Position numbers and translations under genes: made by a program
Shown: positions 2,487-63,745 of the stretch, piece by piece
Layout: each line of letters starts with the position of its first letter
How positions within the stretch are numbered: position 1 is the stretch's first letter
Notes under the pieces: model-generated
Seen by the model: only the letters and a program-made list of their open reading frames with translations
Databases searched by the model: none
What the model was told of the DNA's origin: nothing
Source: Lentibacillus sp. CBA3610
GTDB taxonomy: Bacteria; Bacillota; Bacilli; Bacillales; Amphibacillaceae
Direction of reading: 5' to 3'
DNA length: 64,000 bases
Assembly: GCF_013373365.1 (NCBI RefSeq)
Contig: NZ_CP035925.1
Span: 3,534,001-3,598,000, forward strand

Positions 2487-2695
2487 ATCAGCGGAAACGT
2501 GTCGTGAATCAGCAGAAGAAGCAAAGTATCAGCAGGAGAGCGGATGAATCAACAGAAGAGCGGGTAAATCAGCAGAAGAAAAGAAATATCAACAGAAGAG
2601 CGGATAAATCAACAGAAGAGCAGAAATATCAACGGAAGAGCAGAAATATCAGCAGTAGAAAAGAAATATCAACAGAAGCGCATATGCATCAGCAC
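2487..2695. repeat. 20-bp spaced-word array A (ATCARCAGAAGAG)
   Basis: Eleven imperfect units whose ATC core starts at 2487, 2508, 2528, 2548, 2568, 2588, 2608, 2628, 2648, 2668 and 2688. The step is exactly 20 bp after the first. The core word is ATCARCAGAAGAG, followed by about seven looser bases. It lies between the ddl stop codon and the terminator, so it would be transcribed as ddl 3' UTR. A long reading frame through it is only a by-product of 3 x 20 = 60 bases. Confidence 0.9.
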
Positions 2696-2727
2696 AAAAA
2701 GGCTGCTCCTTTATGGAACAGCCTTTT
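2696..2727. terminator. Bidirectional terminator, ddl / nitroreductase
   Basis: Stem AAAAAGGCTG-TCC pairing with GGA-CAGCCTTTT. A-rich and T-rich flanks on either side suit termination from both converging genes. Confidence 0.8.
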
Positions 2728-2728
2728 C

Positions 2729-3289
2729 CTATCCTTTGAATGTGGTGAATTTCTCCGCAGCGGGTATACGGTCTTTTTTGGCAGGTTTTTCATCAAAATA
2801 GCCAAGATGCAGGAAGCCGACGATTTTTTCATTTTCTCCGACGTTCAGAATTTCTTTGACTTGTGAATCATAAATGTGTGAATTGGTTTTCCAGACGACG
2901 CCAAGTTGCTGTTCCCAGGCAAGCAGCCAAAAGTTCTGGATCATGCTGGCGGTTGCCCCGAAGTTTTCATCCCATTGCTTCGTGCTCTTGGGTTCATCCA
3001 TCACGACAATAAGAAAGGCGGTTGGCTCTCTGAGATATTCCAGGCGGTTTTGCTGTCTTTCTTCCGGATAGGTGGCCGCAACTTGTTGCGCAAAGCTTTC
3101 GGTTTGAAACGGTCCAACGAAAATGAAGCGCCAAGGCTGACGAACGCCATGTGTGGGTGCCCAGACGGCATCTGCCAAGAGTTCCTTTACTGTTTCCTCG
3201 GTAACAGGTTTATGATTATAGTGTTTTTTGACAGAACGACGGTCACGGATCACCTTTTGCAGTGCGGTTGGCTGTTTTGTCAGTTCCAT
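2729..3289 (-). CDS. Nitroreductase family protein
   Basis: FMN-dependent NAD(P)H oxidoreductase of the nitroreductase fold, 186 residues, cytoplasmic. Seen: the FMN-phosphate motif RDRRSVKKH near the N-terminus, WAPTHGVRQPWRF in the middle, and a C-terminal VGFLHLGYFDEKP segment typical of the family. The frame is open 30 codons further upstream, but the start at 3289 has a GGAGG site at the right spacing and begins where the family homology begins. The natural substrate cannot be told from sequence. It is monocistronic and converges on ddl. Confidence 0.85.
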   Translation of the reverse strand: MELTKQPTALQKVIRDRRSVKKHYNHKPVTEETVKELLADAVWAPTHGVRQPWRFIFVGPFQTESFAQQVAATYPEERQQNRLEYLREPTAFLIVVMDEPKSTKQWDENFGATASMIQNFWLLAWEQQLGVVWKTNSHIYDSQVKEILNVGENEKIVGFLHLGYFDEKPAKKDRIPAAEKFTTFKG

Positions 3290-3421
3290 TTGATGTCCTC
3301 CCACATTCGTATTATATAAAATATATGCGGATAATTGATAATTATTTTCAATTACATTTGTAGCCATATTGTAGCTCATAAAGCATAAAAAAGCAAAATG
3401 AATAAATTTTTAAAAAGGGTC

Positions 3422-3508
3422 TTGATATGTGAAATTAATCACGTATAATGGGTGAGGAAGTTGGATTAAAAACCAAGTATTGTTAAATTGTATGTGAAAT
3501 AATTCACA
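3422..3508 (+). promoter_or_regulatory. Promoter with two Rex/FNR-type operators
   Basis: TTGATA (3422-3427) and TATAAT (3444-3449) are 16 bp apart. The whole spacer is the palindrome TGTGAAATTAATCACG (3428-3443). A second site, TGTGAAATAATTCACA (3493-3508), lies about 40 bp past the start of transcription. Both fit the FNR/CRP pattern TGTGA-N6-TCACA, and the second also fits the Rex pattern in all but one base. Positions within and downstream of the promoter argue for repression. Confidence 0.7.
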
Positions 3509-3527
3509 AATATAGGGGGGGAGAAAA

Positions 3528-4562
3528 ATGAAATCGTTTCTAAATCAAAAAGGGGTTTCGTTGTCTATTCGAGAATATGTCATTACGGCATTAAGTTATA
3601 TGGCACTGGGGTTGTTCTCGTCTTTAATCATTGGTCTTATTATCCAGACAATCGGGGAGCAGGCGGTTGCTTTGGGATTTGACAATCTCGAATTTATGGT
3701 TGAAATGGGCGGCTATGCCATGGAAACCAAAATCATGGGCGGTGCTATTGGTGTAGCGATTGCCTATGGCTTGAAGGCACCACCGCTTGTCCTTTTTTCA
3801 GCACTTTTTGCCGGAGCATTCGGAGCTGAACTTGGCGGACCTGCCGGGAGCTATGTGACAGCGTTGTTTGCAACAGAATTTGGGAAAATTGTCTATAAAA
3901 CGACGCGTGTGGATATTATTGTAACGCCATTTGTGACCATCTTCATCGGTTTTGTAGTCGGAACGTTTATTGGCCCGCCGATTAACACATTTATGGTCTG
4001 GTTTGGCGAGATTATTAACTGGTCAACCGAACAGCAGCCGTTTATCATGGGAATTCTAGTTGCGGTTTTGATGGGATGGGCATTGACGGCTCCAATATCC
4101 AGTCTTGCTATTGCCATCATGCTTTCGATTGACGGGTTGGCTGCTGGAGCGGCAACGATTGGATGTGCGGCGCAGATGATGGGCTTTGCAGCATCCAGTT
4201 ACCGTGATAATGGGTTTGGCGGATTGCTGGCACAAGGAATTGGCACATCGATGCTGCAAATCGCAAATATATTGAAAAAGCCAATTATTATTGTCCCACC
4301 GACTATTGCCGGAGCTCTTTTAGCACCATTTGCGACCGTCTGGCTTGGGCTAACGAATAATGAGCTTGGTGCCGGTATGGGAACAAGCGGGCTGGTCGGC
4401 CAAATTATGACCTTTGAATCGATGGGCTTCTCATGGGATGTTTTTTGGTCGATGATGGTTCTGCATGTTGTTGCACCGGCAATCATCAGTCTTGTGATTG
4501 CTGAATGGTTCCGGAAAAAAGGCTGGATCAAGCCGGGCGATATGACAATTGAATATGAATAA
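3528..4562 (+). CDS. PTS EIIC-like membrane protein (PTS_EIIC_2 type)
   Basis: A 344-residue, very hydrophobic protein with about ten membrane segments. It starts with a short cytoplasmic stretch (KSFLNQKGVSLSIREYVI) and has glycine-rich loops such as FGAELGGPAGSYV. I read it as the stand-alone EIIC-like family, which lacks IIA and IIB domains; no other PTS gene is nearby, so sugar transport is unproven. The start has a G7 ribosome site six bases away. The promoter holds two redox-type operators, which suggests expression tied to oxygen or NADH status. Confidence 0.65.
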   Translation: MKSFLNQKGVSLSIREYVITALSYMALGLFSSLIIGLIIQTIGEQAVALGFDNLEFMVEMGGYAMETKIMGGAIGVAIAYGLKAPPLVLFSALFAGAFGAELGGPAGSYVTALFATEFGKIVYKTTRVDIIVTPFVTIFIGFVVGTFIGPPINTFMVWFGEIINWSTEQQPFIMGILVAVLMGWALTAPISSLAIAIMLSIDGLAAGAATIGCAAQMMGFAASSYRDNGFGGLLAQGIGTSMLQIANILKKPIIIVPPTIAGALLAPFATVWLGLTNNELGAGMGTSGLVGQIMTFESMGFSWDVFWSMMVLHVVAPAIISLVIAEWFRKKGWIKPGDMTIEYE

Positions 4563-4664
4563 TAAAGTCGCCTGCGTATGTATTTTGTCACATGATCGTT
4601 AAAGGTTCTCTGTTATACTGGTGGCAAAAGCTATACATTTTTTCAGTAGAAAGGAAGATGTGTG

Positions 4665-5117
4665 ATGGATCAGTTTATGGAGCGGGCAGTTGAGCTTGCG
4701 ACGGAGAACGTCCGAGATGGCGGGGAGCCTTTTGGTGCCGTCCTCGTAAAAAATGATAAACAGGTGACCGAGGGTGTCAATGAACTGCATAGTCGGTTTG
4801 ATATTACGGCACATGCAGAAATTCAGGCAATGCGAAAGGCACAAAAGATGATGCATTCACATGTGTTACAGGGGTATACGATGTACGCCAGTGGTGAGCC
4901 GTGTCCAATGTGTCTGACAGCGATGTACTTTGCGGGTATTGAGACGATTTATTATTGTGCTACATCTGAGGATGCAGTTGATGCAGGCTTAGGTAAGGCG
5001 AAAAATATTTACGAGGAATTACAGAAATCGAAAGACGGTCGCTCAATCGAAATGATTCATATGCCATTAAAGGATGCCCAGGAGGATCCGATGCAGCTAT
5101 GGAAGGAACGCTCCTAG
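4665..5117 (+). CDS. guaD: Guanine deaminase / nucleoside deaminase family
   Basis: Zinc-dependent deaminase of the cytidine-deaminase fold; guanine to xanthine is the likely reaction. The 150-residue protein has the catalytic HAE motif, the PCPMC zinc ligands, and overall similarity to Bacillus GuaD. A GTG lies one codon upstream, but the ATG at 4665 has the better spacing to AAGGAAG. The stop codon TAG is part of the CTAG target duplication of the IS element that follows. The uninterrupted ancestor would have ended at the same codon, so the gene is intact. Its own terminator has been pushed away by the insertion. Confidence 0.8.
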   Translation: MDQFMERAVELATENVRDGGEPFGAVLVKNDKQVTEGVNELHSRFDITAHAEIQAMRKAQKMMHSHVLQGYTMYASGEPCPMCLTAMYFAGIETIYYCATSEDAVDAGLGKAKNIYEELQKSKDGRSIEMIHMPLKDAQEDPMQLWKERS

Positions 5118-5300
5118 GAGCCTTGGACAGAAGTATGCCGTAATTTATGTAAAATAATGTATATTCGATAATTGATTAAAATTGCTTTAAATATGCTTTG
5201 GATGAAATCGCCTAATACCCTTTCAATGCAGGGTTTATAAGGTTTTAACCATTAGAAAAGCACTCTTTTAATGTACAATGTTTTTGAGAGAAAAACAAAC

Positions 5301-5373
5301 CAACGAAGAGTGCTTTGAATTTCATTGTACCTTATTTGTTTAAAAAACGCCACAGTTTAGCCACTCTTCGTTG
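5301..5373 (+). promoter_or_regulatory. Leader hairpin of the outer IS
   Basis: Twelve-base perfect inverted repeat, CAACGAAGAGTG (5301-5312) with CACTCTTCGTTG (5362-5373), ending 24 bp before the transposase start. Such structures often keep outside transcription from entering a transposase gene; that role is inferred here. Confidence 0.5.
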
Positions 5374-5841
5374 AATCTCAAAACGAGGAGAGATTAAATG
5401 GCACAACGAAACCCCGATGCCCCTAATCAGATTGTTCTTTTCCAGGAATTATTACAGGACAAGATTGAACATAAGCCACATGCTGCCCGGTTCTTTTCGT
5501 ACTTGGCAGAGGAGTTGGATCTGACCTACTATGAACGCTTACGAATGGGGCGCCACCTACACCCGCCGTATCGTAACGGCTGTTATTTTTTACGCCCATG
5601 TACCATGGACATTATGCAGCTCAGAAGATCTGTCGTTTGCCGAGGACAGTATTGGCGCACAGTGGATATATCCGGCATGCGTATGCCAAGTTATAAACAG
5701 TAGAACGAACGATAGATGCTCTTTGGCTGAAGTGGACCGCCTTTTCATTTCAAGTCATTGGAATCTGTGAAGGTTGTCCCTGATTGGCCGACAACGCATG
5801 CATATTGATGGTACAAAAGTCAAAAGCCAATGCCTCGAAGC

Positions 5842-7468
5842 CAGCACTGAGGATAAATTTATTTTCATATTCACTTGTTTCTTTGAAATTCACTATATTA
5901 AACACTGAATATTCGGAAATTATTTTTCTCCTATTTTACCAAAAAAGAGAAGCCGAATTTTCAGGGGATAATTTTTTGAAAACTTTACACAAATAGATTT
6001 CTTTGCTTGGCATCACATCCTTTGCTAATATGAATCTATCAGGTGAACCGCACTGTATAGGTTTACCATTTCGTTATATCCTCGTCTGGTTAGTCGTTTT
6101 GTTCTGATGGTCTCTAACAGATTTGAGGATATTTCTTTTGCCGTCTTTTTGACACGCTTAAGTATGTTTGAGCCATTTTCAAATAGCTGCATCAAAATAT
6201 CCGTTATTTGTGTCAAAAGATAATGGTTCTTCATGGCCGTGTAATCATGGCTTGATGCATGTCGATTATGATATTCGGAATATGCTTTTTGTCTGTTGAA
6301 ACCTTCATTTTCAATCTTCCAGCGGCTTCTGCCTGCATTAGAGAAGCTTTCGACAGTTTTTATCCGTGATTTTGATATCGGTCAAAAACATGAAACGCTT
6401 TTGGCCATCTGCCGTTTGATCGTACCTTCCAATACATGAATGTCCCAATCATTATACGCAATGTGATTAACCCAACGAATCTTGTCCTGCTGCCCTTTCC
6501 ATTAGTCTCTTCATCTTATCCAACGCATGAAACTCTTCACTGATGCTTTTGATGCGGTCTTCTTTAAAGCGTAACAGGAACTTCCAATGGTTGTTATGAC
6601 AGGTTTTAAATACGTTCTCACATGCATACAGACTATCGGCAATAATGCAGATTGGCAGCCTCTTAAATGTTTGATTTAATCGGGAAGCCATACGATAAAA
6701 CGCATTTAATTCACAGTCCTGTTTGGGACCTCTTCTGACTTCATCTCAATAAACTCGGAATCAACACTGAAAACCCATATTGCCAACACCAGTTTCGCCT
6801 CCAGGACATGATGCATGTAAACAGTCTTTCGACATTCCCTTCTTCGTTCTTTGTATTTCCCGCCTCAAGCATGATCGCAATGCTTCTGATTGAAACGTGA
6901 ATAACCCGGTCCATCAAAATTAATAAATCGCCCCAATTACTTGCCGCCAATACGGCCATCTCAAAACCACCTCTTTTCAATAACTCCCTGATCATATAAG
7001 TCCGTATGTTACGCAGTTCATCCGGTTCCAGCGCGAGAGGAGTCATTGATGGTGTCGTAATGTGGTAATTCCTCCAAGGTTTCAATGTTCAACGCCTTTT
7101 TGATGTTGACAATACATTCATCTTTGTTGAATTGATTCGTCATCGATCGCATGCTTTTTCAGTCACATACATTTCAGGATGATCATGAAAAGAAGGATAT
7201 CGCACCCATAATCGATATAGCTTTGATGGCGTGGATCAGAGACATGTTTCATTATGTTTTGCAAATCTTTAAAAAAGTGTTTCCTGAATTTCATGAGCTC
7301 GAAAAAATAATTTTCACCTTTTTCCATGTTTCTTTTTATTTTTCTCGTTACCATCTTAAAATCCCCCTAAAATATGCGGTATAATAGGCTTTCTCGTAAT
7401 TATATTATACCATGTTTTTCCATATTTTAGGTCGTATTAGCTCGAAAAATTTTTACTCTTCAGTGCTG
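5842..7468 (-). mobile_element. Inner insertion sequence nested in the IS1182 element
   Basis: A 1627-bp element with imperfect terminal inverted repeats that share CAGCACTGA followed by A/T-rich sequence. It is flanked by a 9-bp duplication CCTCGAAGC (5833-5841 and 7469-7477). It lies inside the transposase codons for KANASK of the outer element. Its own transposase is on the minus strand and badly decayed. The length and 9-bp duplication resemble the IS4 superfamily, but I cannot assign the family. Confidence 0.85.
6025..7354 (-). pseudogene. Decayed DDE-type transposase of the inner IS
   Basis: Fragments in several minus-strand frames form one degenerate gene, beginning near 7354 with VTRKIKRNMEKGENYFFELMK. 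Later pieces include LEPDELRNIRTYMIRELLK, then LPICIIADSLYACENVFK (a likely catalytic-aspartate strand), then CHNNHWKFLLRFKEDRI, and finally KNHYLLTQITDILMQLFENG near 6234-6175. The protein looks like a DDE transposase of IS4/ISNCY character; the exact family is uncertain. Several stops and frame changes make it non-functional. Confidence 0.65.
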
Positions 7469-10940: not shown

Positions 10941-10941
10941 G

Positions 10942-10972
10942 AAAGGCGCACATGCCCGGATGTGCGCCTTTT
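10942..10972. terminator. Bidirectional terminator
   Basis: Perfect 12-bp stem AAAGGCGCACAT / ATGTGCGCCTTT with loop GCCCGG. It serves the SRPBCC gene and, in reverse, the convergent VanY-like gene. Confidence 0.9.
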
Positions 10973-10985
10973 CAATCGTCTAATA

Positions 10986-11999
10986 TTACCTCAAATACTC
11001 TTCAAGTGTGATCGCCTGTTCCATGATGTCAGTCGCCGCTTTTTCGCCAACGTACCGCAGATGCCATGGTTCGTACTGGTACTGGGTAATGTCTTCCTTG
11101 CCTTCCGGATAACGGATGATAAAGCCATATTCGGCTGCATGCTGCTCGAGCCACTGACCTTCATCGGTTTCACCAAATTCCTCCGTTAACCGAAAATCAA
11201 CATCCGGACTGGTGACATCCATCGTTAAACCGGTCTGATGCTCGCTTTCCCCGGGCCGTGCACTGAAGTTATTGGCAGCTTCCTCGCCGTGTTCCTGAAC
11301 ATTGGAAGCAAAAATGGCATCCTGTCTGTCGAACGAACGGTACCCGGACTGGGCGAATAGTTCAAGCCCTTCTTCATCGGCAGCTTCAAACATATTTTCC
11401 AGAGCTGTGGCCGCTACTTGCCGCATCTGTTTTTTTGGTAAAAAATCCTCAAACGGAAACCGGACATCCGGTACAACGAGATTTACAGGTTCAAATCCAT
11501 CCGGCAGTGAATTTTCTTTATTGATGAGTGACAGGATTTCGTGTGGATTGCTGACTATATTTGAATGATCATTGTCAGGCTTTTCAAGTTCTGAGCCTGG
11601 CTTAATTGTCGTGTTATTTTCGAGTGTTTCGTTTAGTGAACTACGCGTGTCATCATCAAAAATTCCCGTGACAGGCAGTGATTCCTGCTGCATTTGATAA
11701 TCTGTAACAGCCCACGTCGTCATGCTATCATACGTTCCATTTGGATCGATGGAATAATCTATTTTATGCAAGGCTTCCTGCAGGGATTGGACAGCATCCC
11801 CTGTATCATTTTTCTGCAGGTGTTCTTGGGGTAATTGTAATTGGTTATGTGCTGGTTCTGTTTTATCTTGATTATCTGATTGATTGGTTGGTGCGGGCTC
11901 AGTGGTTTGCTGATCTTCTGAAGCACTATCACTGCAGGCTGTGATCAGAAAAAGTATGGCAAACAGCACTGTAGCAACTGTGAAGCTTTTCTTGAACAT
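10986..11999 (-). CDS. VanY-type D-Ala-D-Ala carboxypeptidase lipoprotein with peptidoglycan-binding domain
   Basis: Secreted, membrane-anchored enzyme that trims D-alanine from peptidoglycan stem peptides. The N-terminal signal ends in the lipobox LITAC (Cys 22). A charged linker follows, then a PG_binding_1 domain (about residues 60-135, QKNDTGDAVQSLQEAL). The M15B peptidase domain has SGYRSFDRQ, SEHQTGLTMDV and EPWHLRYVG, which carry the zinc ligands His and Asp and the catalytic Glu-x-x-His. It resembles Bacillus YodJ with an added wall-binding domain. Length is 337 residues. Confidence 0.88.
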   Translation of the reverse strand: MFKKSFTVATVLFAILFLITACSDSASEDQQTTEPAPTNQSDNQDKTEPAHNQLQLPQEHLQKNDTGDAVQSLQEALHKIDYSIDPNGTYDSMTTWAVTDYQMQQESLPVTGIFDDDTRSSLNETLENNTTIKPGSELEKPDNDHSNIVSNPHEILSLINKENSLPDGFEPVNLVVPDVRFPFEDFLPKKQMRQVAATALENMFEAADEEGLELFAQSGYRSFDRQDAIFASNVQEHGEEAANNFSARPGESEHQTGLTMDVTSPDVDFRLTEEFGETDEGQWLEQHAAEYGFIIRYPEGKEDITQYQYEPWHLRYVGEKAATDIMEQAITLEEYLR

Positions 12000-16300: not shown

Positions 16301-17547
16301 GTCAATTCATTGATGACGAGGTCAAGATAGACGGCTGTTTTTTGGCTGGGATCATTCAGGTCAAACTCGGCGATTTCACGAATTCGCTTTAAACGATAAT
16401 TCATTGTATTGGAATGAATGAAAAGTTTTCTCGCTGCTTCTGTTGTATTGGAGTCTGTTTGCAGATAGACATACAGTGTCGGCAATAATGATGTATGGTT
16501 TTGCGCATCATAGGCACGAAGCCGTTCAACATACGGATTGGTATAGCCGATCTGGTTTCTGATCGTGGCTAAATCATCAGCGAATTCATAAACGCCCAGA
16601 TCTTCATAAGCGATTAGATGGTCCAGTTTGTTTGGGAATTTATGTTTCACCTCTGTAACTTTCAGAGCTTGTTTGTATGAATCTTTTATATGACTGGGAG
16701 ATTCATAGACAAAACCTGATGTGCCACGGATGCCGTTGATTTGAAACTGAGCATTGATTTTATCAATAAACTGCCGGATAAAATCCTGTACAGCCTTTGT
16801 AGCATGTTCACCCTTGTTCACACGGGTAATCATAATGAAATCATTGTCATCAAACAGCCGGAAAAGGACCTGAACCCTCACTTGAGTTTCCACTAAATAA
16901 TAAGCGTGTATTTTCATGCGTTCTGTAACCTGGTTGGGGAATTGAATGATGGCCACCGCCAATTTGCCGTCCAGGTTTATGTTGTACTGTTCGGCTTTCC
17001 GTAAAATATGACCATCTTCCGTCAGATCCCCTGTCAGGAGCTGCCAGAAAAAATCATTATGGCCTTGCTCGGATGTTTCTTTTGCCTGGTGCCGTTTCAG
17101 CAGGAGCTTCTTAACTTGCAAGGCGGCTTCTTTCAAGGATTGCAGCTCTTTTTCGTTAAGTTGTTTATCGGCTGTATGTGCCCAGATAAAGCCGAGGATT
17201 TCATTCTTTTTCCGGATGGAAACGGCAACACGATTGCTAAGCCCGATCTCGTCTATTTCAGGGATGATAACCGGATCATCATTGTCGATCAGTTTAGGCA
17301 TAACACCCTTTTTCCAAAGCCCATTAAGCACTTTATCCGGAACTTTCCGGTTCATAATTGTCGAAATTCGAGCCTCATCAATGTTTTCGCTATGTTTGCT
17401 GTAAGAGACAACATGATGGTGGGAGTCTTCTATGGTTATCGGGCATTCAAAAACTTCCGCGATATAATCGGCCAGATTTTCCGGTGAATCAATGATATCA
17501 TTTAAATGTTGTTTAAATTGCCCCGGATGGTTTAAAATATTATTCAT
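16297..17547 (-). CDS. adeR: PucR-family transcriptional activator of ald
   Basis: A 416-residue regulator of the PucR/CdaR type. The N-terminal region (about 1-150) is GAF-like. The C-terminus has the family helix-turn-helix: SNTTEAARKLFIHSNTMNYRLKRIREI. In Bacillus subtilis the equivalent protein AdeR (YukF) lies next to ald and activates it in response to alanine. The same pairing here, with the gene 118 bp upstream of ald, supports the name. Direct proof of the target is absent from the sequence. Confidence 0.78.
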   Translation of the reverse strand: MNNILNHPGQFKQHLNDIIDSPENLADYIAEVFECPITIEDSHHHVVSYSKHSENIDEARISTIMNRKVPDKVLNGLWKKGVMPKLIDNDDPVIIPEIDEIGLSNRVAVSIRKKNEILGFIWAHTADKQLNEKELQSLKEAALQVKKLLLKRHQAKETSEQGHNDFFWQLLTGDLTEDGHILRKAEQYNINLDGKLAVAIIQFPNQVTERMKIHAYYLVETQVRVQVLFRLFDDNDFIMITRVNKGEHATKAVQDFIRQFIDKINAQFQINGIRGTSGFVYESPSHIKDSYKQALKVTEVKHKFPNKLDHLIAYEDLGVYEFADDLATIRNQIGYTNPYVERLRAYDAQNHTSLLPTLYVYLQTDSNTTEAARKLFIHSNTMNYRLKRIREIAEFDLNDPSQKTAVYLDLVINELT

Positions 17548-17716
17548 GTTTCCCTTCCTCTATCTACTAGTCTACTAGTTTGATTTCATGATAAAAACGT
17601 AACGATTTGTGTAAAAGAACGAATTGCTTACTTTATATTTTAGCTGATAGACAAAATGATTTAAACTATTATCTGCTACACTTATTTGAAGAGGCATCTA
17701 AGGGGGAAAAATACAG

Positions 17717-20732: not shown

Positions 20733-20770
20733 AAAAGAGCTGTTTACTGTATCAGTAAGCAGCTCTTTTA
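20733..20770 (+). terminator. fni terminator
   Basis: AAAGAGCTG-TTACT pairs with AGTAA-CAGCTCTTT, followed by TTATTG. Confidence 0.85.
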
Positions 20771-20797
20771 TTGTTTATAAAACGACGGAAAATATAA

Positions 20798-20893
20798 AAA
20801 CGCCAAAGTGTGAGTGGAAAACGCCAAAGTTCAGTCCAAAAACGCCAAAGTTAAAGTAAGAAACGCCAAAGTTAGTTGGAAAAACGCCAAACA
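20798..20893. repeat. 21-bp spaced-word array B (AAACGCCAAAG)
   Basis: Five units whose CGCCAAA core starts at 20801, 20822, 20843, 20864 and 20885, a step of exactly 21 bp. The conserved word is about 11-13 bases (AAACGCCAAAGTT) with six to eight variable bases between words. It lies after the fni terminator and ends 81 bp before the MBL hydrolase start, so it may be outside or at the edge of that gene's promoter. Confidence 0.9.
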
Positions 20894-43989: not shown

Positions 43990-44216
43990 ATGGGCGTGAA
44001 TGCAACATGGGCGCGTTAGCAGTCAATATGGGCTTGAAACCAAAAACATGGGCGAGTTGGCAGCTAATATGTGCCCAAAAGCGAAAACATGGGCTGGTTG
44101 GCAGTCAATATGGGCCCGAAACCGGAAATATGGGCGCATCGGCAGCCAATATGGGCCGTAGAACGAAAACATGGGCTCATCGCAGTCAACATGGGCCCGA
44201 ATAACAAAACATGAGT
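43990..44216. repeat. 20/21-bp spaced-word array C (ATGGGC)
   Basis: Twelve ATGGGC words (one reads ATGTGC, one ATGAGT) begin at 43990, 44007, 44028, 44048, 44069, 44089, 44110, 44130, 44151, 44171, 44191 and 44211. After the first, the steps alternate 21 and 20 with one late exception. They form a 41-bp higher unit: a GTTGGCAGTCAAT-type spacer alternates with a CCGAAAACGAAAAC-type spacer. It lies between the divergent cwlK and plsY-like genes, upstream of both. Confidence 0.92.
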
Positions 44217-46396: not shown

Positions 46397-46510
46397 GTGA
46401 GCGAAGTGCCTAAGCGTGCGATGGGTCCCAAACCGTGCGAGGAGCTGCTGAAACGTTCGGGATGGAATCAAAATTGTGCGGGGAGCATCACTGACGCGTG
46501 CAAGAGAAAT
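46397..46510. repeat. Degenerate 20-bp spaced-word array D (GTGCG)
   Basis: About six GTGCG-like words begin at 46397, 46416, 46435, 46455, 46476 and 46498, at steps of 19, 19, 20, 21 and 22 bases. The fuller word resembles CGTGCGAKGGR. It is more worn than the other arrays. It fills the gap between pdxK and pncA. Confidence 0.6.
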
Positions 46511-47764: not shown

Positions 47765-48013
47765 ACATATAATATATGAAACGTTGATGAGGATAAGTCA
47801 GCTTGTATGTCTTTGACAGAGAGGAAATGGCTGGTGTGAATTTCCAAGACATAACTGGAACCTGCCTCTGAGTTCGCCGTCAGGATGGCTTTTGCCAAAA
47901 GATGTGCGCGGTTTAAACCGTTATGTCATGAAGTGTGCAGTACGTTTGGTCGGCTGCAAACAAGGGTGGTACCACCAGGCCTCGGTCCCTTATTTCAGGA
48001 CGGAGGATTTTTT
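47765..48013 (+). promoter_or_regulatory. Pro T-box riboswitch of proS
   Basis: T-box AGGGTGGTACCACCA at 47963-47977, terminator stem CCTCGGTCC / GGACGGAGG (one mismatch, 47980-48006) and TTTTTT after it. The likely specifier is CCT (47861-47863) in GGAACCTGCCTCTGAG context, a proline codon, fitting proS downstream. Confidence 0.9.
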
Positions 48014-56604: not shown

Positions 56605-56635
56605 AAAAAAGCTCCTGATCAGGGAGCTTTTTTAA
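56604..56635 (+). terminator. Terminator after zinc-ribbon gene
   Basis: AAAAAAGCTCC pairs with GGGAGCTTTTTT across TGATCA; perfect but for one flanking base. Confidence 0.92.
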
Positions 56636-56698
56636 AAGAAAATATAAAACCCATGGCTGCACAGCTCTGCTGCTGTGGTATTTTTATGGGAACATTAG

Positions 56699-56925
56699 CG
56701 CGATATGGCACGTCCGGCAAAAGTGCTGATTCGCGCGAAAAGGGGGAAATATCGCGCAACAATCATCCGATTTCGCGCGGCGCAGCCCCAATTCCGCGCG
56801 ACAACTGCGTGATTTCGCGCAGCACCCTTTCGACTTCGCGCATCGACCCCTGATTTGACGCACCACCGCCCCGAAACTGTGCGACATCAAACAATTCAGT
56901 GTCATCCTATCATGATTTCACACGA
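56699..56925. repeat. 21-bp spaced-word array E (TTCGCGCG)
   Basis: CGCGC-like words begin at 56732, 56753, 56774, 56795, 56816, 56837, 56858 and 56879, each exactly 21 bp apart. A degenerate one in phase lies at 56711 and worn ones at 56699, 56900 and 56919. The fuller word is GATTTCGCGCR with about ten looser bases. It lies between two convergent genes (zinc ribbon and zinc-ribbon membrane protein), beyond the first gene's terminator. The palindromic GCGC core makes it strand-neutral. Confidence 0.92.
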
Positions 56926-56973
56926 CACAGCTGCGAATTAGCAGTTACTGAAAACTGCAGTCAAAATACCTTC

Positions 56974-57786
56974 TTAAAAACCGCCGAACATCGAGTCCAT
57001 TAGGCTGCCAAGAATCGCACTGAGAAAGGACTGGGTGAAAAAGCCAAATGCCAGGATTGTGATTATGTATAAAACCAGTAATACATAAACCCGGTCAAAA
57101 CCCTCTGCCGGCTGTTCCAATAAAATAAAGGTAGGTATGAACAGAACTAATCCGAGAATACTAATCAGAATCAGTATCACGGCAAGCGCCGATATCCCAA
57201 TTAATGAAAAAATAATTCCTGCTGCGAATAAAAGAACGAATGGAATTAAATAGGCACCGTACTTGGCTATGACATCAGGAAATGTAACCGTCTGTACGGA
57301 TAACTTTGCACCGGCAAACGTTAATCCCGCAATCAGGAATTCCAACAGAACAAAGATTATAATCGGCAGGATAAAACTGTCAAAAAACGAAATACTTCTG
57401 AAGAATCCTGCTGGAATAGCGTTGAGTACAAAGTGGTAGCTTGCCGCTAACAATAAAGCTGATAAAACAATTATGATGATTCCGGAAATCACGTCTGTAT
57501 GGTTTGCTTTTTTCGCTTCGCTTGGGTTTTTAACCAGGGTGACAAAGAAATGACCAAAGTCACTGCCGATCGTTTGCAGTTTGTCCATTGCCTCATTGTT
57601 TTTCGCTGAATATTCCTGGTCCTCTGTTGAATTTTCTTGTTCTTCTGTAAAATGGTCACCCGCAGAATCATGGTCGGTTTCTGTGCTTGTTTCCTTATCA
57701 TGCATCTGCTCAACGTCCAATTGTGCTCCGCAATTAGTGCAAAACTTTCCTTCAGCCGTTTGTTCACCACATGAAGGGCATTGCAT
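56974..57786 (-). CDS. Zinc-ribbon membrane protein (YIP1-like)
   Basis: A 270-residue protein: zinc ribbon with CPSCGEQTAEGKFCTNCG at the N-terminus, an acidic, Gln-rich linker to about residue 80, then five to six membrane segments with the YIP1-like profile (GIIIIVLSALLLAASYHF, FVLLEFLIAGLTFAGAKL). Function is unknown. The start follows AAGGAAG. It is convergent with the small zinc-ribbon gene. Confidence 0.75.
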   Translation of the reverse strand: MQCPSCGEQTAEGKFCTNCGAQLDVEQMHDKETSTETDHDSAGDHFTEEQENSTEDQEYSAKNNEAMDKLQTIGSDFGHFFVTLVKNPSEAKKANHTDVISGIIIIVLSALLLAASYHFVLNAIPAGFFRSISFFDSFILPIIIFVLLEFLIAGLTFAGAKLSVQTVTFPDVIAKYGAYLIPFVLLFAAGIIFSLIGISALAVILILISILGLVLFIPTFILLEQPAEGFDRVYVLLVLYIITILAFGFFTQSFLSAILGSLMDSMFGGF

Positions 57787-57895: not shown

Positions 57896-57999
57896 CTTTT
57901 TGAGATGCCGGGGATCAGACGCCGGGCTGGGGAGAAATCGGTGGCGCTTCACTGATGCCTGTACGGAAGGCGTTATCGGAATTTCTATGTTTTCTTTTC
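57896..57999 (+). repeat. Intergenic hairpin repeat, copy 2 of a two-copy family
   Basis: Matches 42040-42140 over about 100 bases. It includes GATGCC / GGCGTT-type arms and ends in TCGGAATTTC and TATGTTTTCTTTTC. It lies between the YIP1-like gene start and the htrB terminator, in the same orientation as copy 1. Confidence 0.6.
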
Positions 58000-58009
58000 A
58001 AATAAAATA

Positions 58010-58036
58010 AACCTGCAGCTGATTCAACTGCAGGTT
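58010..58036 (-). terminator. htrB terminator
   Basis: AACCTGCAG pairs with CTGCAGGTT, loop nine bases. On the minus strand a short T-rich tail (TTATTTTATT) follows. Confidence 0.8.
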
Positions 58037-58057
58037 CTTAAAAGGAGAAAGAATCTA

Positions 58058-59380
58058 TCATTGTTGTTCTTGCTGACGCTCAGCCAAATCCATTGAAACG
58101 GTTTGTGCCTCACCATTTCGATAGAACTCAAGTTCAACTGTTTCCCCAATTTCCGCTTCATTGTACAGAAATGTACGTAAATCCACGATTGAGGTTATCT
58201 GATTACCATTGATTTGCGTGATTACATCGAATTGCTGCAGGCTTGCCTCATCTGCAGGTGATCCGTTTTCTACTTGGGCAACGACCATACCACCTTCAAC
58301 ATCTTCCGGAACCTGGATTTGGTCACGGTATTGTGGTGGTACTGTATTAATAGGGGCTGAACTGATGCCAATGTATGGCCGTGCCACTTGTCCCTCTGTT
58401 TCAAGCTGTTCGATGATTGGTGTCGCGGTGTCAATCGGAATAGCAAACCCAATACCTTCAACGGCTGTTTGTGCGATTTTCATTGAATTGATTCCGATTA
58501 CTTCACCATCACTGTTGACAAGTGCACCACCACTGTTTCCCGGATTAATGGCAGCATCTGTTTGAATAACTTCAGTAATCCAATCCGGTTGACCATCGCC
58601 GTTTGTATCCATATTAACGGAACGATCCAGACCGCTGATGATACCTCTTGTCAATGTATTGGCGAATTCCATTCCAAGTGGGTTGCCAATTGCAATGACT
58701 GTTTCCCCAACTTCTGCGTCATTTGATGAACCAAGGTTTGCAACGGTATCGATTTGGGATCCATCAACTCTCAGAACGGCAAGGTCGCTTAATTGATCCG
58801 TACCAAGAACTTCTGCCTCTATACGTTCATCATTGTTAAGGGCTACTTCGACTTCCTGTGCATCTGCAACAACATGCTGGTTCGTGACGACATAGGCATT
58901 ACCGTCTTCTTTTTTATAGAGGATGCCTGAACCTGTGCCGGATTCTTCACTCGGTTCCCAAATATTTGTCTGTTGCATTCGGGTGACACCTACAACAGCT
59001 TCTGATGCTTCCTCCATATTTGTGGCGGTTTCCTCATTATCTGAAGCAATTGTTTCGGTAACTTCCGGTGATGATTCGTCTGATTGATTATTTTCCGTGG
59101 CAGCATCTGAATTATTACCGTCATCATTATTTGGTATAATATTGGTAGTAAATAATAGTACGACCACAATGGCTGAGACGACACCGCCAATGATTCCGCT
59201 CAGAAAATTGCCTGATTTATTCCGTTTCGGCTTTTTATCCTGATTCGCTTTGGCATTTTGTCTGGCTGATTGTGCGATACCGCCGTTTGCATCCGGATCC
59301 GATTGGTGGACCGGTTCATTATCCGGATGCTCCTGATTATCTCTATTTTCATTATTATGTTGATGATTGTTAAAATCCAT
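58058..59380 (-). CDS. htrB: HtrA-family membrane serine protease
   Basis: Quality-control protease at the outer face of the membrane. 440 residues: a polar N-terminus of about 55 residues, a membrane anchor (SGIIGGVVSAIVVVLLFTTNI, about 61-80), an acidic linker, a trypsin-like domain with His in VVTNQHVV, Asp in LSDLAVLRV and Ser in NPGNSGGALVN, and one C-terminal PDZ domain (PYIGISS ... LEFYRNGE). It is divergent from cssRS, the same arrangement as Bacillus htrB-cssRS, and is probably induced by CssR on secretion stress. Confidence 0.88.
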   Translation of the reverse strand: MDFNNHQHNNENRDNQEHPDNEPVHQSDPDANGGIAQSARQNAKANQDKKPKRNKSGNFLSGIIGGVVSAIVVVLLFTTNIIPNNDDGNNSDAATENNQSDESSPEVTETIASDNEETATNMEEASEAVVGVTRMQQTNIWEPSEESGTGSGILYKKEDGNAYVVTNQHVVADAQEVEVALNNDERIEAEVLGTDQLSDLAVLRVDGSQIDTVANLGSSNDAEVGETVIAIGNPLGMEFANTLTRGIISGLDRSVNMDTNGDGQPDWITEVIQTDAAINPGNSGGALVNSDGEVIGINSMKIAQTAVEGIGFAIPIDTATPIIEQLETEGQVARPYIGISSAPINTVPPQYRDQIQVPEDVEGGMVVAQVENGSPADEASLQQFDVITQINGNQITSIVDLRTFLYNEAEIGETVELEFYRNGEAQTVSMDLAERQQEQQ

Positions 59381-59551
59381 GAATATATCACCTCTTTACG
59401 TTATCATGAAGTCAACTCTTATTATAATCATCACATTTGGTAGGATTTTGGTGCAAATATGGCAAAAGTGTGTAAATGATAGTTTCAATATTGACATTCC
59501 CGTTATTCAGTGAAAATAATCATAACAAATCAATGATGGAGGCGTCCTTTT

Positions 59552-60244
59552 ATGAGTCATCATATCGGAGTAGTGGAAGATGATGCAAATATCCAAAACA
59601 TTGTATCGGCCTATTTAAAAAAAGAAGGCTTTCATGTAACAGTCATGGAATCTGCTGAGGCTGCCTGGGACCTCTGGGAAACACAGCGGCCGGATATGTG
59701 GATACTGGATATAATGCTGCCTGGCATGGATGGTTACGAATTCTGTAAAAAAATTCGCCAGGAAAGTGATGTACCGATTATAATCATTTCGGCTAAAGAT
59801 GATGAAGTTGATAAAATACTCGGGCTTGAACTTGGGGGCGATGATTATTTAACCAAGCCATTCAGCCCCCGGGAACTATTGGCGCGTGTTAAGCGTGTAT
59901 TCAAACGTGCTGACCATTCTACCGGGAGCAGTCAAGAATCCCATGACCGGATTAAAGTTGATAATTTATTGATTCATGAGAATGATCGCCGGATTTTTTG
60001 GAATGGTGAAGAGAAAGATATGACCACAAAGGAATTTGATATGCTTTTGCTATTGGCGAAAAATATCAATAGAGCCTTTTCCCGGGAGGAATTACTGATC
60101 AGGATTTGGGGGGAAGACTACTTCGGCAGTGATCGTGCCGTTGATGACCTCGTTAAACGAATACGTAAAAAACTGCCCGACATTCAACTGGAGACGGTAT
60201 GGGGTTATGGTTATCGGCTGCGAAGTGAAGAGGAATCGTTATGA
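59552..60244 (+). CDS. cssR: Response regulator CssR, OmpR family
   Basis: A 230-residue regulator. Receiver domain with the phosphorylation site Asp 53 in WILDIMLPG, acidic pocket VVEDDAN, Lys in LTKPFSP; then a winged-helix DNA-binding domain (TTKEFDMLLLLAKNINRAFSREELLIRIWG ... VDDLVKRIRKKL ... GYGYRL). Similarity in the receiver and the neighbouring htrA-type protease support CssR. The start follows GGAGG. The stop overlaps the cssS start. Confidence 0.88.
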   Translation: MSHHIGVVEDDANIQNIVSAYLKKEGFHVTVMESAEAAWDLWETQRPDMWILDIMLPGMDGYEFCKKIRQESDVPIIIISAKDDEVDKILGLELGGDDYLTKPFSPRELLARVKRVFKRADHSTGSSQESHDRIKVDNLLIHENDRRIFWNGEEKDMTTKEFDMLLLLAKNINRAFSREELLIRIWGEDYFGSDRAVDDLVKRIRKKLPDIQLETVWGYGYRLRSEEESL

Positions 60245-61560
60245 AACTGCAATCCCAGTTAAATTTAGCTTTTACTGCCCTCATGCTGGTTATCCTTGGC
60301 GTTACAGGGTATGTGATTTATTCCATGATACTTGGGATGCTGATTGACAATGAGCGGACGGAGCTGCAGCAAAAAGGGGAATTACTTATTCAGGTTTTGA
60401 ATGAACAAGGCCAGGGACAGGGAAGTATTGAGGATTTCAGCAACTTTTTGCGGGAACAGGATCTGCAGTTATTCCTTTATGACCGTGCTCAGGATCAGGT
60501 ACTGATGTCAACGATGCCCGAGCAATATGTCAGGGGGTTCTCAGCTAATAATTACTTTGCGGATGAACGGGAAGAATTATGGGAAGCAGGCAATAATAAA
60601 TTTGTCACGTCGCGCATTCTGATTTATCCGGATCGAACGACACTGGAATTGGTTTTATTGACCCCATTGACGGATCTGCAGACAGTGCAGCAGGATTTTT
60701 TCAGGCGGATGGTTATCGTGTTCATCATCGGTACTATGGCGGCGGTTCTGCTCAGTTATTTATTAACCAATAAATTAGTAACGCCTTTAACAAAGTTGAA
60801 AAAACAACTGAAAAAAATCGAAAAACGAAAATTTGATGATATCGAACGCATAAAAGCAACAGGTGAAATTAAAGAAGTCGAACAAGGGCTGTACGATATG
60901 GCTACGGAGCTTGAGCGGTATATGAAGTCACAGCAGGCGTTTTTCCAAAATGCGAGCCACGAGCTGAAAACACCGCTCATGACCATACAAGGTTACGCGG
61001 AAGGTATTCGTGATGGTGTCTTTAATGAAAAAGATAAGGAAAAAGGACTGGAAATGATGGTGACAGAGGTTAGCCGGTTGAAGACCATCATTAATGAAAT
61101 GATACTTCTGGCAAAATTGGACAGTGAGCAAGCTGAGTACAAAGATGAGCAAATAAGGGCGACTGAGCTGATCGACCAGGTATTGGACCGGGCATTGCCA
61201 TTAGTCAGTGAGAAAGACATCACGCTGAATCATTCTGTGGACAACGAAAGTACCTTTATGGCCGATCAGGAAAAATTACTGCGGGCTTTGTTGAATATTA
61301 CCGTTAATGCCATTCGTCATGCTCATTCACGTGTTAATGTCACGGTTGAGGAAAAGACGATTATAATTGAAGATGACGGGGAAGGTATAGCAAAAGAGCT
61401 CATTCCGCATATTTTCCACAGGTTCGTTAAAGGTAAAACTGGAGAGACCGGGCTTGGGCTGGCGATTGCACGGGCGATTGTAGAGCAGTCCGGCGGCAAA
61501 ATCATGGTGCGGGATTCAGAGCTTGGTGGAGCAAAATTCGTGATTGCTTTTCCTGAGTGA
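60241..61560 (+). CDS. cssS: Sensor histidine kinase CssS
   Basis: A 439-residue kinase sensing secretion stress. Membrane segments at about 9-34 and 157-177 enclose an extracellular domain of about 120 residues. HAMP follows (LTNKLVTPLTKLKKQLKKI), then HisKA with His 240 in FFQNASHELKTPLM, and a HATPase domain with N-box NITVNAIRHA, DDGEGI and GLGLAIARAI. It overlaps cssR by four bases, so the pair is translationally coupled. Confidence 0.88.
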   Translation: MKLQSQLNLAFTALMLVILGVTGYVIYSMILGMLIDNERTELQQKGELLIQVLNEQGQGQGSIEDFSNFLREQDLQLFLYDRAQDQVLMSTMPEQYVRGFSANNYFADEREELWEAGNNKFVTSRILIYPDRTTLELVLLTPLTDLQTVQQDFFRRMVIVFIIGTMAAVLLSYLLTNKLVTPLTKLKKQLKKIEKRKFDDIERIKATGEIKEVEQGLYDMATELERYMKSQQAFFQNASHELKTPLMTIQGYAEGIRDGVFNEKDKEKGLEMMVTEVSRLKTIINEMILLAKLDSEQAEYKDEQIRATELIDQVLDRALPLVSEKDITLNHSVDNESTFMADQEKLLRALLNITVNAIRHAHSRVNVTVEEKTIIIEDDGEGIAKELIPHIFHRFVKGKTGETGLGLAIARAIVEQSGGKIMVRDSELGGAKFVIAFPE

Positions 61561-61583
61561 GAATATATCCCGCATCTAATGGT

Positions 61584-61682
61584 CAGTAAGCCGCCAAAAA
61601 ACGGCGGCCAACTGACCCTAAATGCCCGATTCTGTTCAACTAACATGCAGTAGGAAAAACCGCCCTACTGCATGAAGTTTCA
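61584..61682 (+). repeat. Hairpin repeat family, shorter copy
   Basis: Begins CAGTAAGCCGCC and has the hairpin GCCGCC / GGCGGC (61590-61608), then AAATGCCCGATTCTGTTC, then a second hairpin TGCAGTAGG / CCTACTGCA (61645-61671), and ends TGAAGTTTC. It aligns with 51510-51733. It lies between cssS and typA and may also act as the cssS terminator, although no T run follows. Confidence 0.65.
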
Positions 61683-61740
61683 CTTTATGTTACAATAGGA
61701 TAGTTTTGAACCACTCTGTAATGATTAGGAGCGTACGTTT

Positions 61741-63675
61741 ATGCAATTAAGAGAAGATATTCGTAACATTGCAATTATCGCACACGTTGATCATGGCAAG
61801 ACAACACTTGTTGATCAGATGCTGAAATACTCGGGCACTTTTCGTGAAAATGAACAAGTGGATGAACGTGCTATGGACACGAACGATATTGAGCGTGAAC
61901 GCGGGATTACGATTTTATCCAAGAACACAGCAATTAAATATGAAGATACAACCATCAATATTCTTGATACCCCGGGCCATGCCGACTTTGGCGGCGAAGT
62001 GGAACGGATTATGAAAATGGTTGATGGTGTCTTGTTAGTTGTTGATGCTTATGAGGGTTGTATGCCGCAGACGCGTTTTGTTTTGAAGAAAGCATTGGAC
62101 CAAAAGCTGACACCGATTGTTGTTTTGAATAAAATAGATCGGCCGAATGCCCGTCCGAATGAAGTGATTGATGAGGTATTGGATTTGTTCATTGAACTTG
62201 GAGCGGATGATGAACAATTGGAATTCCCGGTCGTTTATGCATCTGCAATTAACGGGACATCAGGTGAAGAGCCGGATGAGCAGATGGAAACAATGGACCC
62301 TGTTTTTAAGCCAATTTTGAGTCATATTCCTGCACCAGATGATACACAGGAGGAGCCGCTGCAATTCCAGGTTACGCTGCTTGATTATAATGACTATGTA
62401 GGCCGGATTGGTGTCGGTCGTGTTGTCCGTGGCACCATCAGTGTCGGTCAGCAGGTTGTTGTATTGAAGAAAGACGGGACAGAAAAGCCATTTCGTATCA
62501 GTAAATTATTCGGATTCATTGGCTTAAAACGGATTGAAATCCAGGAGGCAAAAGCCGGAGATATTGTAGCGATAGCTGGTATGGATGATATCAATATCGG
62601 CGAAACAATCTGCTCACCGGAAAAACCCGAGGGCCTGCCATGGCTCCGTATTGATGAGCCGACGCTGGAGATGACATTTGTGACGAATAATAGCCCATTT
62701 GCCGGACGTGAGGGTAAATATATTACATCCAGGCAAATTGAGGAACGCTTGATGAAGCAGCTGGAAACAGATGTCAGTTTGCGTGTGAATCCAACTGAAA
62801 CACCGGATGCCTGGACCGTTTCAGGGCGCGGGGAACTCCATCTTTCCATTTTGATTGAAAACATGCGCCGTGAAGGGTTTGAGCTGCAATTGTCGAAACC
62901 CCAGGTCATTATTAAAGAAATTGATGGGGTTAAATGTGAACCGGTAGAGCATGTCCAGGTGGATGTACCAGAAGAATATACAGGTCCGGTGATGGAAACC
63001 TTGGGTGAACGAAAAGGCGAAATGCTTGATATGGTAAACCAGGGAAATGGACAGGTGCGTATTGAATTTAAAGTGCCATCCCGTGGGTTGATTGGTTATG
63101 CAACGGAATTTATGTCACTCACACGCGGTTATGGCATGCTGAACCATACGTTTGATAGCTATGAGCCGGTTGCGAAAGGCCAGGTTGGTGAACGTCGTGA
63201 GGGTGTACTTGTTGCCATGGAAAATGGTAAAACGTCGACTTACGGCATTATGCAACTGGAGGACCGCGGTGTGATATTTGTTGAACCAGGAACCGACGTT
63301 TATGCCGGTATGATTGTTGGGGAGCACAACCGTGAGAATGATTTGACGGTCAACATCACGAAAGAAAAACATTTAACCAATGTTCGCTCAGCAACAAAAG
63401 ACCAGACAGCAACTATCAGGAAAACACGTGATATGTCCCTTGAGGAAGCTATTCAATATTTAAATGATGATGAATACTGTGAAGTAACACCTGAAACAAT
63501 CCGCCTTCGCAAAAAGTTATTAAATCAAAATGACGTGAAAAAGCAGCAAAAAAATCGAAATCGGGGTAAAGTGAAACTTCATTCAGTGGGACGCTTTTCT
63601 CCGCTGATGAAAAGGAACAATAATCCGATAGATCCGGCGATGGCATTGGAAGCTGTTGCCGGTTTTTTGCTGTGA
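61741..63675 (+). CDS. typA: Ribosome-associated GTPase TypA/BipA, frameshifted C-terminus
   Basis: Translational GTPase used under stress and cold. Domains: G domain with AHVDHGKTTLVD (P-loop), ERERGITI, DTPGHADF and NKIDRPNA; then beta-barrel, EF-G-like III and V, and C-terminal domain, all normal to about residue 600. The usual end (LRKKLLN ... basic tail) would be read by adding one A to the A5 run at 63538-63542: it then reads KKAAKKSKSG and stops at 63567-63569. As written the frame shifts and adds about 36 residues that run through the gene's own terminator. Confidence 0.93.
   Translation: MQLREDIRNIAIIAHVDHGKTTLVDQMLKYSGTFRENEQVDERAMDTNDIERERGITILSKNTAIKYEDTTINILDTPGHADFGGEVERIMKMVDGVLLVVDAYEGCMPQTRFVLKKALDQKLTPIVVLNKIDRPNARPNEVIDEVLDLFIELGADDEQLEFPVVYASAINGTSGEEPDEQMETMDPVFKPILSHIPAPDDTQEEPLQFQVTLLDYNDYVGRIGVGRVVRGTISVGQQVVVLKKDGTEKPFRISKLFGFIGLKRIEIQEAKAGDIVAIAGMDDINIGETICSPEKPEGLPWLRIDEPTLEMTFVTNNSPFAGREGKYITSRQIEERLMKQLETDVSLRVNPTETPDAWTVSGRGELHLSILIENMRREGFELQLSKPQVIIKEIDGVKCEPVEHVQVDVPEEYTGPVMETLGERKGEMLDMVNQGNGQVRIEFKVPSRGLIGYATEFMSLTRGYGMLNHTFDSYEPVAKGQVGERREGVLVAMENGKTSTYGIMQLEDRGVIFVEPGTDVYAGMIVGEHNRENDLTVNITKEKHLTNVRSATKDQTATIRKTRDMSLEEAIQYLNDDEYCEVTPETIRLRKKLLNQNDVKKQQKNRNRGKVKLHSVGRFSPLMKRNNNPIDPAMALEAVAGFLL
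63634..63668 (+). terminator. typA terminator, inside the extended reading frame
   Basis: Eleven-pair stem CCGGCGATGGC / GCTGTTGCCGG (with G-U pairs), loop of seven, then TTTTTT. It lies at codons 632-643 of the extended frame, so the ancestral gene ended before it. Confidence 0.85.
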
Positions 63676-63683
63676 TTGGGTGG

Positions 63684-63745
63684 TAATCAGCAGAAAGCGG
63701 GAAATATCGTCAGAACAGGAAAATTATCAATCAGTATCGCTTTTG
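63684..63745. repeat. 20-bp spaced-word array F (same word as array A)
   Basis: Three units with ATC at 63686, 63706 and 63726, exactly 20 bp apart, in AATCAGCAGAAAGCGGGAA-like context. The word ATCAGCAGAA matches array A after ddl, 61 kb away in this window. Confidence 0.7.

Follow-up and report, generated by a model that had tools for sequence, protein, structure and literature searches.

Intergenic arrays of short words at a 20-21 bp step in Lentibacillus sp. CBA3610: fork-oriented rows as putative phased binding sites for a DNA-organising protein

The intergenic DNA of Lentibacillus sp. CBA3610 contains arrays in which a short conserved word returns at a step of 20 or 21 bp, with variable spacers in between and with a preferred orientation relative to the replication fork. 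The arrays were noticed in a stretch of 64,000 nucleotides of contig NZ_CP035925.1 (G000:C1:3534001-3598000, hereafter the window), which belongs to a 4.04-Mb genome in one contig, G000. A first reading of the letters alone (the original prediction) had described six of them. The rows are putative phased binding sites for a DNA-organising protein, a reading to which a probability of about 0.4 is assigned.

The proposed elements would be chromosomal and intergenic, and would present short sequence-specific contact sites every two turns (20-21 bp) on one face of the helix. One or more DNA-binding proteins would bind the row cooperatively, or wrap it, and in this way organise the chromosome. Selection on protein binding would then preserve both the words and the step. 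The polarity would reflect either an action of the bound complex at the fork or together with it, or the seeding of new arrays at that place. The observed parts of the scheme are the many dispersed arrays, the words that vary less than their spacers, the kept step, the orientation by the fork and not by the flanking genes, the likeness in that orientation of word families of equal step and, in a minority of arrays, a local expansion by dimers or trimers.

Word families and anatomy of the repeat unit

Six word families (F1 to F6) were mapped, at 3 to 18 loci each. In the fork-preferred orientation the words are ATCAGCAGAAGAG in F1 (step 20, 10 arrays), AAACGCCAAAGTT in F2 (step 21, 7 arrays), AAACATGGGC in F3 (step 20, 13 arrays), ATTTCGCGC in F4 (step 21, 18 arrays), GCTGAAGTTCAC in F5 (step 21, 3 arrays) and TCGCTGTAGATT in F6 (step 21, 3 arrays). 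Words outside these families are also found, such as GTACCACT at L221 and TTACCACC at L210. Pairs of words with up to 3 mismatches match G000 38 times for F1, 22 for F2, 298 for F3 and 57 for F4, against 0 for the backward-pattern controls. The word differs from array to array, as first described; that only the first word is reused did not stand, since the words of arrays 1, 2, 3 and 5 of the window all recur elsewhere.

Rates were obtained from 784 kb of G000, composed of 36 evenly placed 20-kb stretches and the window, with four further stretches picked for F1 hits being excluded. The 620 intergenic segments of this sample (197,807 bp) were scanned in 60-bp windows, with a threshold of 36 matches. 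Lags 20, 21 and 22 gave 4, 13 and 1 segments, lags 40, 41 and 42 gave 5, 6 and 13, lags 60 and 63 gave 4 and 6, and the remaining lags 0-2 each. Shuffled intergenic DNA yielded 0 segments at lags 20-22 at the same threshold and a mean of 0.2 at the looser threshold of 34, so that the intergenic periodicity at 20-22 bp exceeds that of shuffled sequence, as the original prediction supposed. Of the arrays with stops in all frames, 20 belong to the class with a 19-22-bp lag or its multiples (25.5 per Mb, a count that lacks a shuffle control of its own), 2 lie at 51-53 bp and 2 have other steps. By extrapolation from this rate, the genome holds about 100 arrays. Coding repeats were considered as their source and rejected, since the 20-bp families cannot hold a reading frame. 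The periodicity of predicted coding DNA lies mostly at multiples of three, lag 21 being the most frequent, and one F4-like array lies within a predicted reading frame of G000 (L126, 14642-14967).

Within the unit, the information content is 1-2 bits in most columns of the word and 0-0.6 bits in most of those of the spacer; two doubtful F3 chains (L126, inside a predicted frame, and L247) were left out of the anatomy and of the chromosome map and kept in the orientation count. The modal step occurs in 384 of the 463 intervals, all families summed (F1 73/83, F2 29/30, F3 154/190, F4 104/131, F5 12/12 and F6 12/17, for allowed steps of 14-27). The claim that the step is kept while the spacers vary is thus upheld. 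Units located through the word bias the comparison towards word conservation; it was redone without the word filter, with the neighbours that lie at precisely one step's distance from the best unit. The identities of word and spacer are then 0.68 and 0.41 in F1, 0.74 and 0.33 in F2, 0.70 and 0.52 in F3, 0.71 and 0.36 in F4, 0.74 and 0.56 in F5 and 0.47 and 0.28 in F6. The spacers of neighbouring units are about as alike as those of different loci in F2, F4, F5 and F6, less alike in F1 and more alike in F3, and the mean spacer identity stays below 0.6 at 1-3 units' distance in 38 of 54 arrays. That the words are conserved and the step is kept points to sequence-specific contacts along a single face of the DNA.

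Spacer identity goes up two units apart (F1 0.63, F3 0.63, F4 0.47), which indicates that some arrays grew by dimers. Together with the duplicated spacers of 16 arrays and with higher-order duplications, such as the 60-bp lag with 80/80 matches at L114, this type of growth would be expected of ordinary tandem repeats produced by slippage and then decayed, their step being a chance inheritance. Such an origin is unlikely: each of the families F1-F4 has its word at some 9 to 18 different places, the words are better conserved than the spacers, the rows follow the fork, and the steps of several genera cluster at 20-22 or 51-53 bp, other steps also occurring. In G006, several F3 arrays alternate the words ATGGGC and ATGTTC and form a 40-bp dimer.

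The A/T content of the unit alternates with the helical turn. The k=2 harmonic (10-10.5 bp) is the largest in five of the six families (Fisher P=6e-5 over six), with P values of 0.0014-0.064 across these five, of which only F2 and F4 fall below 0.05 by themselves. Alternation of A/T and G/C at 10-10.5 bp fits a surface for one-face binding or wrapping. The one-face binding surface of the original prediction is supported to this extent, by the six families taken together and by two of them singly. Among 13 arrays of other genera with 20-21 or 51-52 bp steps, 6 have the 10-10.5 bp harmonic as the largest, 5 of them with P<0.05, and so do 3 of 5 sister-species arrays. A 1.6-kb array of another genus (L232, 17370-18982), with a step of 65-66 bp, has no 10.5-bp harmonic.

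The alternation is comparable with the GC periodicity of 10.75 bp at the arms of E. coli gyrase sites, as given in the excerpted text of PMC6379681. On this ground, DNA gyrase might wrap the arrays, which would make them the Gram-positive counterpart of BIME-2, and the terminator-like hairpins near them agree with this. Such a role is nevertheless improbable, since it leaves the conserved words and the polarity unexplained and many arrays lack a significant harmonic.

Orientation relative to the replication fork

The replication map of G000, drawn from GC skew and gene direction, places the terminus (ter) at about 1.07 Mb and the origin (ori) at about 3.26 Mb. The word is found on the family-preferred strand relative to the fork in 50 of 56 arrays, the preferred strand being derived from the same loci with one choice per family. 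The rule is followed by 20 of 23 arrays in the even sample and by 30 of 33 in stretches picked or fetched for hits. Sorted by gene context, it holds for 25/28 arrays with both genes along the fork, 14/14 between convergent genes, 6/8 between divergent genes, 4/4 with both genes against the fork and 1/2 in unclear contexts. The gene-neutral or opposing contexts together give 24/26 (binomial P ~5e-6). The sister species, to which the rule of G000 was applied with the variant words F1b and F4b, obey it in 27 of 31 arrays, and in 21 of 24 where the absolute GC skew over 20 kb reaches 0.03 or more (G001 8/8, G005 12/15, G002 1/1); twelve of the stretches from sister species, six of G001 and six of G005, were chosen for F1 or F2 hits.

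Transcription is disfavoured as the cause of the polarity, as the rule persists where the flanking genes do not predict the strand. The earlier remark that the arrays share no transcriptional context agrees with an orientation that follows the fork across convergent, divergent and opposing genes. A polarity that does not depend on the genes speaks against RNA or transcription and makes an RNA-level element (3' untranslated region, partner of a terminator or small RNA) very improbable: the fork orientation is kept with both genes opposing or convergent, and Rfam gave zero matches at the arrays of the window. What speaks for RNA is that terminator-like hairpins are commoner near the arrays than in random intergenic pieces. 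Within 130 bp of the 56 arrays, such hairpins were counted upstream 16 times on the same strand and 11 times on the other, and downstream 9 and 12 times, respectively; the random intergenic control has one in 81 of 1120 pieces. The arrays lie near terminators, with no clear side. An association with the upstream side alone is not borne out, the hairpins being frequent on both sides and both strands.

GC skew was also tried as the cause of the polarity; it fits F1, F3 and F6, whereas the GC skew of F2, F4 and F5, read in the preferred orientation, is negative. Along the chromosome, none of the 58 mapped F1-F6 loci falls at 718-1796 kb around ter (P=0.002, clusters merged), the F3 list being incomplete. 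An absolute gap at ter was rejected, as two rows of other words occur at about 1.41 Mb (L210).

Dispersed intergenic repeats of a Gram-positive bacterium that follow the fork and not transcription, with whole-turn spacing kept across differing words, narrow the possibilities to DNA-level processes. As binding rows, they would constitute a new layer of bacterial chromosome organisation; as products of copying, they would reveal a fork-dependent mechanism of repeat spreading.

The window, its relatives and the case for copying

The window was scanned with 80-bp windows at lags 12-60. Arrays 1, 2, 3 and 5 alone are detected, at lags 20/40/60, 21/42, 41 and 21/42, respectively, and three shuffles used as control gave no array. 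Each of these four reaches P=0.0002 against shuffles of the same array. Arrays 4 and 6 are weak by themselves (P=0.045 and 0.056 against their own shuffles). Both are decayed, and the case for them is based mainly on rows at the same sites in relatives.

Array 1 (2487..2695, + strand, word ATCARCAGAAGAG, family F1, step 20) lies between convergent genes, a nitroreductase gene and one that we take to be ddl, and is flanked by a terminator-like hairpin predicted from the sequence at 2696..2727 (no strand assigned). The protein of the gene before it is 73-77% identical to those of Ornithinibacillus, Virgibacillus, Lentibacillus and Paucisalibacillus, the closest named relatives. Array 1, the one array searched against plasmid and phage collections, gave no match there. 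A further predicted terminator-like hairpin (20733..20773, +) precedes array 2 (20798..20893, +, word AAACGCCAAAGTT, family F2, step 21), whose neighbours are a gene of the FMN-dehydrogenase family and one of the metallo-beta-lactamase superfamily. Array 3 (43990..44216, +, word AAACATGGGC, family F3) has a step of 20/21 with a 41-bp dimer and divergent genes on either side. Array 4 (46397..46510, +, word GTGCG) is irregular in step: its opening two words are separated by 19, and the whole window contains zero exact GTGCG pairs 20-22 bp apart; the row of G004 at the same site supports the array.

Array 5 (56709..56862) carries its word TTGCGCGAAAT on the - strand, with the 21-bp step of family F4; the wider limits given earlier, 56699-56925, take in decayed units. 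Its terminal unit (56707..56735, -) is common to other F4 arrays, and the terminator-like hairpin that precedes it (56655..56688, +) resembles hairpins beside other F4 arrays. A putative hairpin with A and T runs (56605..56635, no strand assigned) is located 3' of the gene whose end precedes array 5. Array 6 (63684..63745, +) is a decayed F1-like row 3' of a bipA/typA gene (Pfam). The window also contains two T-box leaders in tandem (568-816 and 858-1105, -), a third at 47775-47993 (+), and a 21-bp repeat at 57596-57648 within the gene 56974-57786 (-), whose coding strand is F1-word-like (CAACAGAGGA, ACAGAAGAAC).

The six sites were compared by eye in related genomes, the species covered differing from site to site. 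Site 1 has an F1 row in G000, G011 and G002, a decayed one in G007 and none in G005. An F2 row is present at site 2 in G000 and G005 and absent from G004 (perhaps a relic), G011, G007, G002 and G009. Site 4 has GTGCG rows in G000 and in G004 (GTGCGAG), none in G007 and G009, and is ambiguous in G011 and G005. At site 6, the F1-like row that is decayed in G000 corresponds to a long ATCAACGGAATAG row in G005, which supports the reality of array 6, and to nothing in G011. A row common to two species at one site is always of the same word family.

The first observation is thus partly confirmed and its interpretation partly supported; its scope was partial, as many more arrays, the dispersed word families and the fork orientation were found beyond it.

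F1 (up to 2 mismatches) was found in 10 of 60 genomes, its own included, all within the genus, and F2 at the same tolerance in 4 of 60. With 3 mismatches, F3 is present in 9 of 12 genus genomes (controls 0-2), and some of its matches in G001 are F1-F3 intermediates, for example AAACATCGGCAGAAGAG. Arrays were also counted, per Mb, in the own genome, the genus (syntenic stretches), the family's other genera (contig starts, then around ddl), the order's other families and other phyla and classes. In this order, the 20-22 class gives 25.5, 17.5, 16.7, 9.8, 6.5 and 1.9, the 51-53 bp arrays 2.6, 0, 19.4, 4.9, 12.9 and 0, and other steps 2.6, 5.0, 11.1, 14.7, 6.5 and 7.5; some stretches are short or masked (L229, L238), the step classes were assigned automatically, and an isolated row, for instance the AT-rich row of L301, could have arisen by chance. 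Arrays of related genera have a step of 20-21 or 51-53 bp and use other words; arrays are very scarce in the sampled other phyla. The 51-53 bp arrays of other genera are L223, L225, L226, L231, L049, L290, L292 and L298; the word of one 51-53 bp array was checked for recurrence and found at a single locus only.

Families of equal step resemble each other over the whole unit. In the same orientation, P is 0.005 for F1-F3, 0.003 for F2-F5, 0.001 for F2-F6 and 0.008 for F5-F6, and in the opposite orientation 1.0, 0.49, 0.024 and 0.27, respectively. F4-F6 (P=0.006) and F2-F4 (0.020) are, like F2-F6, also alike in the opposite orientation, and F4 is therefore excluded from any claim of lineage. For the other families, this likeness fits lineages in which words drift while step and polarity stay, as the earlier suggestion of a step preserved over sequence would have it. 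A test with 10-bp windows is weak for F1-F3 (P=0.27).

At least F4 has probably been copied between loci, because half of its arrays have a common terminal unit. No end sequence common to most arrays of a family was seen by eye in F1, F2, F3, F5 or F6. Two unlinked F3 arrays (L266 and L267) begin right after similar hairpins (ACTGTCGAA...TTGAGACAGT), and F4-like arrays at two loci of G007 and one of G002 end in a common hairpin, TTTTGCACC...GGTGCAAAA (L192 ~10950-11107, L193 ~17500-17640, L187 13878-14035).

The main rival to protein binding is that the arrays are selfish or mutational, without host function, and that their polarity is a trace of copying. Single strands annealing at the lagging-strand template would copy units between loci, or units would multiply by slippage that depends on the fork. 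The strong polarity and the F4 ends are explained in this way equally well as by binding, or better; the dimer and trimer duplications, the rows present at sites 3 and 5 in G000 only, and the Y1 transposase domains of 10 of 12 genus genomes also speak for it. On the other hand, copying alone would not preserve words as the spacers diverge, G011 carries arrays without a match to the Y1 domain, and most families lack a majority end sequence, the hairpin common to two F3 arrays notwithstanding. Origin by copying without function is possible, and is held with some doubt.

Several observations weigh against binding sites. Six or more words per genome require several proteins or one that is loosely specific, and no binder is known. 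On the preferred strand A exceeds T in all six families, strongly in F1-F3 and slightly in F4-F6, and this A-skew is a possible cause of the polarity of F1-F3. Three F3 spacer columns reach 1.0-1.1 bits, and 16 of 54 arrays retain duplicated spacers (identity at least 0.6 at 1-3 units, as dimer or trimer copies). The k=2 harmonic is not the largest in F1 (P 0.13) and has P 0.056-0.064 in F3, F5 and F6; P exceeds 0.05 in 8 of 13 arrays of other genera and in 3 of 5 of sister species, and a mild 10.5-bp signal is also seen in intergenic DNA at large (0.026 vs 0.019 for uniform). Arrays come and go between species: by eye, the row of site 3 is found in G000 only, with none in G007, G004, G011, G009 or G002, and so is the F4 row of site 5, with none in G004, G011, G007, G005 or G009. 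In 10-bp windows, same-orientation likeness exceeds the opposite in only 10 of 15 pairs, and the opposite orientation gives P=0.003 for F3-F5, 0.010 for F3-F4, 0.017 for F2-F4, 0.027 for F1-F6 and 0.033 for F2-F3. Finally, 9 of 18 F4 arrays end near CCAGGCGTGCC (up to 2 mismatches), compared with 1.9% of control windows.

Comparison with known systems

Among the matches listed in open-licence literature (titles and abstract openings, with few subscription papers covered), no description of such arrays was found. CRISPR repeats measure roughly 23-50 bp and alternate with unique spacers of similar length. The arrays differ in their step of 20-21 bp including the word and in spacers of 7-10 bp, in line with the earlier statement that they are not CRISPR. 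In the iterons and centromere repeats of plasmids, one protein family binds direct repeats spaced by about two turns, whereas the arrays of G000 are chromosomal, occupy many loci and use several word families. KOPS, SRS and AIMS are single short motifs, strand-biased to replication and expected to be denser towards ter. The arrays share the strand bias along the replichores, but are phased and, on an incomplete map, have none of their mapped loci in the region around ter. Ordinary variable number tandem repeats have columns that are all alike and neighbours that are the most similar. In the arrays, words exceed spacers with and without the word filter, and the retained dimer or trimer copies are a trait of the tandem-repeat kind.

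REP elements have a RAYT (Y1) transposase as partner. In the genus, the Y1_Tnp count (10/12, array-bearing G011 having no match) does not tell RAYT and IS200 types apart. REP and BIME elements are, like the arrays, dispersed intergenic repeats. REPs are palindromic according to the excerpted text of PMC12306157, while the consensi of F1 and F3, judged by eye, are not and the core of F4 is so in part (TCGCGCGA); the arrays further differ by their direct 20-21 bp step and their fork polarity. BIME-2 elements are described as strong gyrase sites in E. coli (PMC6379681, in part), a possible parallel to wrapping.

The closest described kind are the STAR elements of staphylococci, and the original prediction went too far in knowing of no described family with this design. 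In the portions of PMC3532100 that bear on them, STAR elements consist of directly repeated words and spacers in intergenic DNA. An S. aureus genome has them at 32-39 loci; they expand and contract locally, vary in location between species and have no assigned function. They have one word family with a 14-bp word and spacers of 40-44 bp (a step of ~54-58 bp), and most loci have one motif; the words "orientation", "leading" and "helical" are absent from the main text of that source. The arrays of G000 are likewise dispersed intergenic direct repeats. They differ in the modal step of 20 or 21 bp including the word, as opposed to the STAR spacer of 40-44 bp, and in their words, which are unlike the STAR consensus T(G/A/T)TGTTG(G/T)GGCCC(C/A). 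A search by pairs of STAR cores, single cores not being searched, gave 0 matches in G000, and among 398 genomes one has a core pair; its 9 cores include a single row of 6. The arrays are not STAR elements but may work alike. Tentatively, both might belong to a chromosome-wide orientation system of Bacillaceae, made of fork-polar rows of protein contacts at whole-turn spacing, with STAR elements as an outlying member. Such a system could use two turns in the genus and two or five in its relatives, and its words could drift like dialects together with their readers while step and polarity remain fixed, a suggestion put forward with the same reserve.

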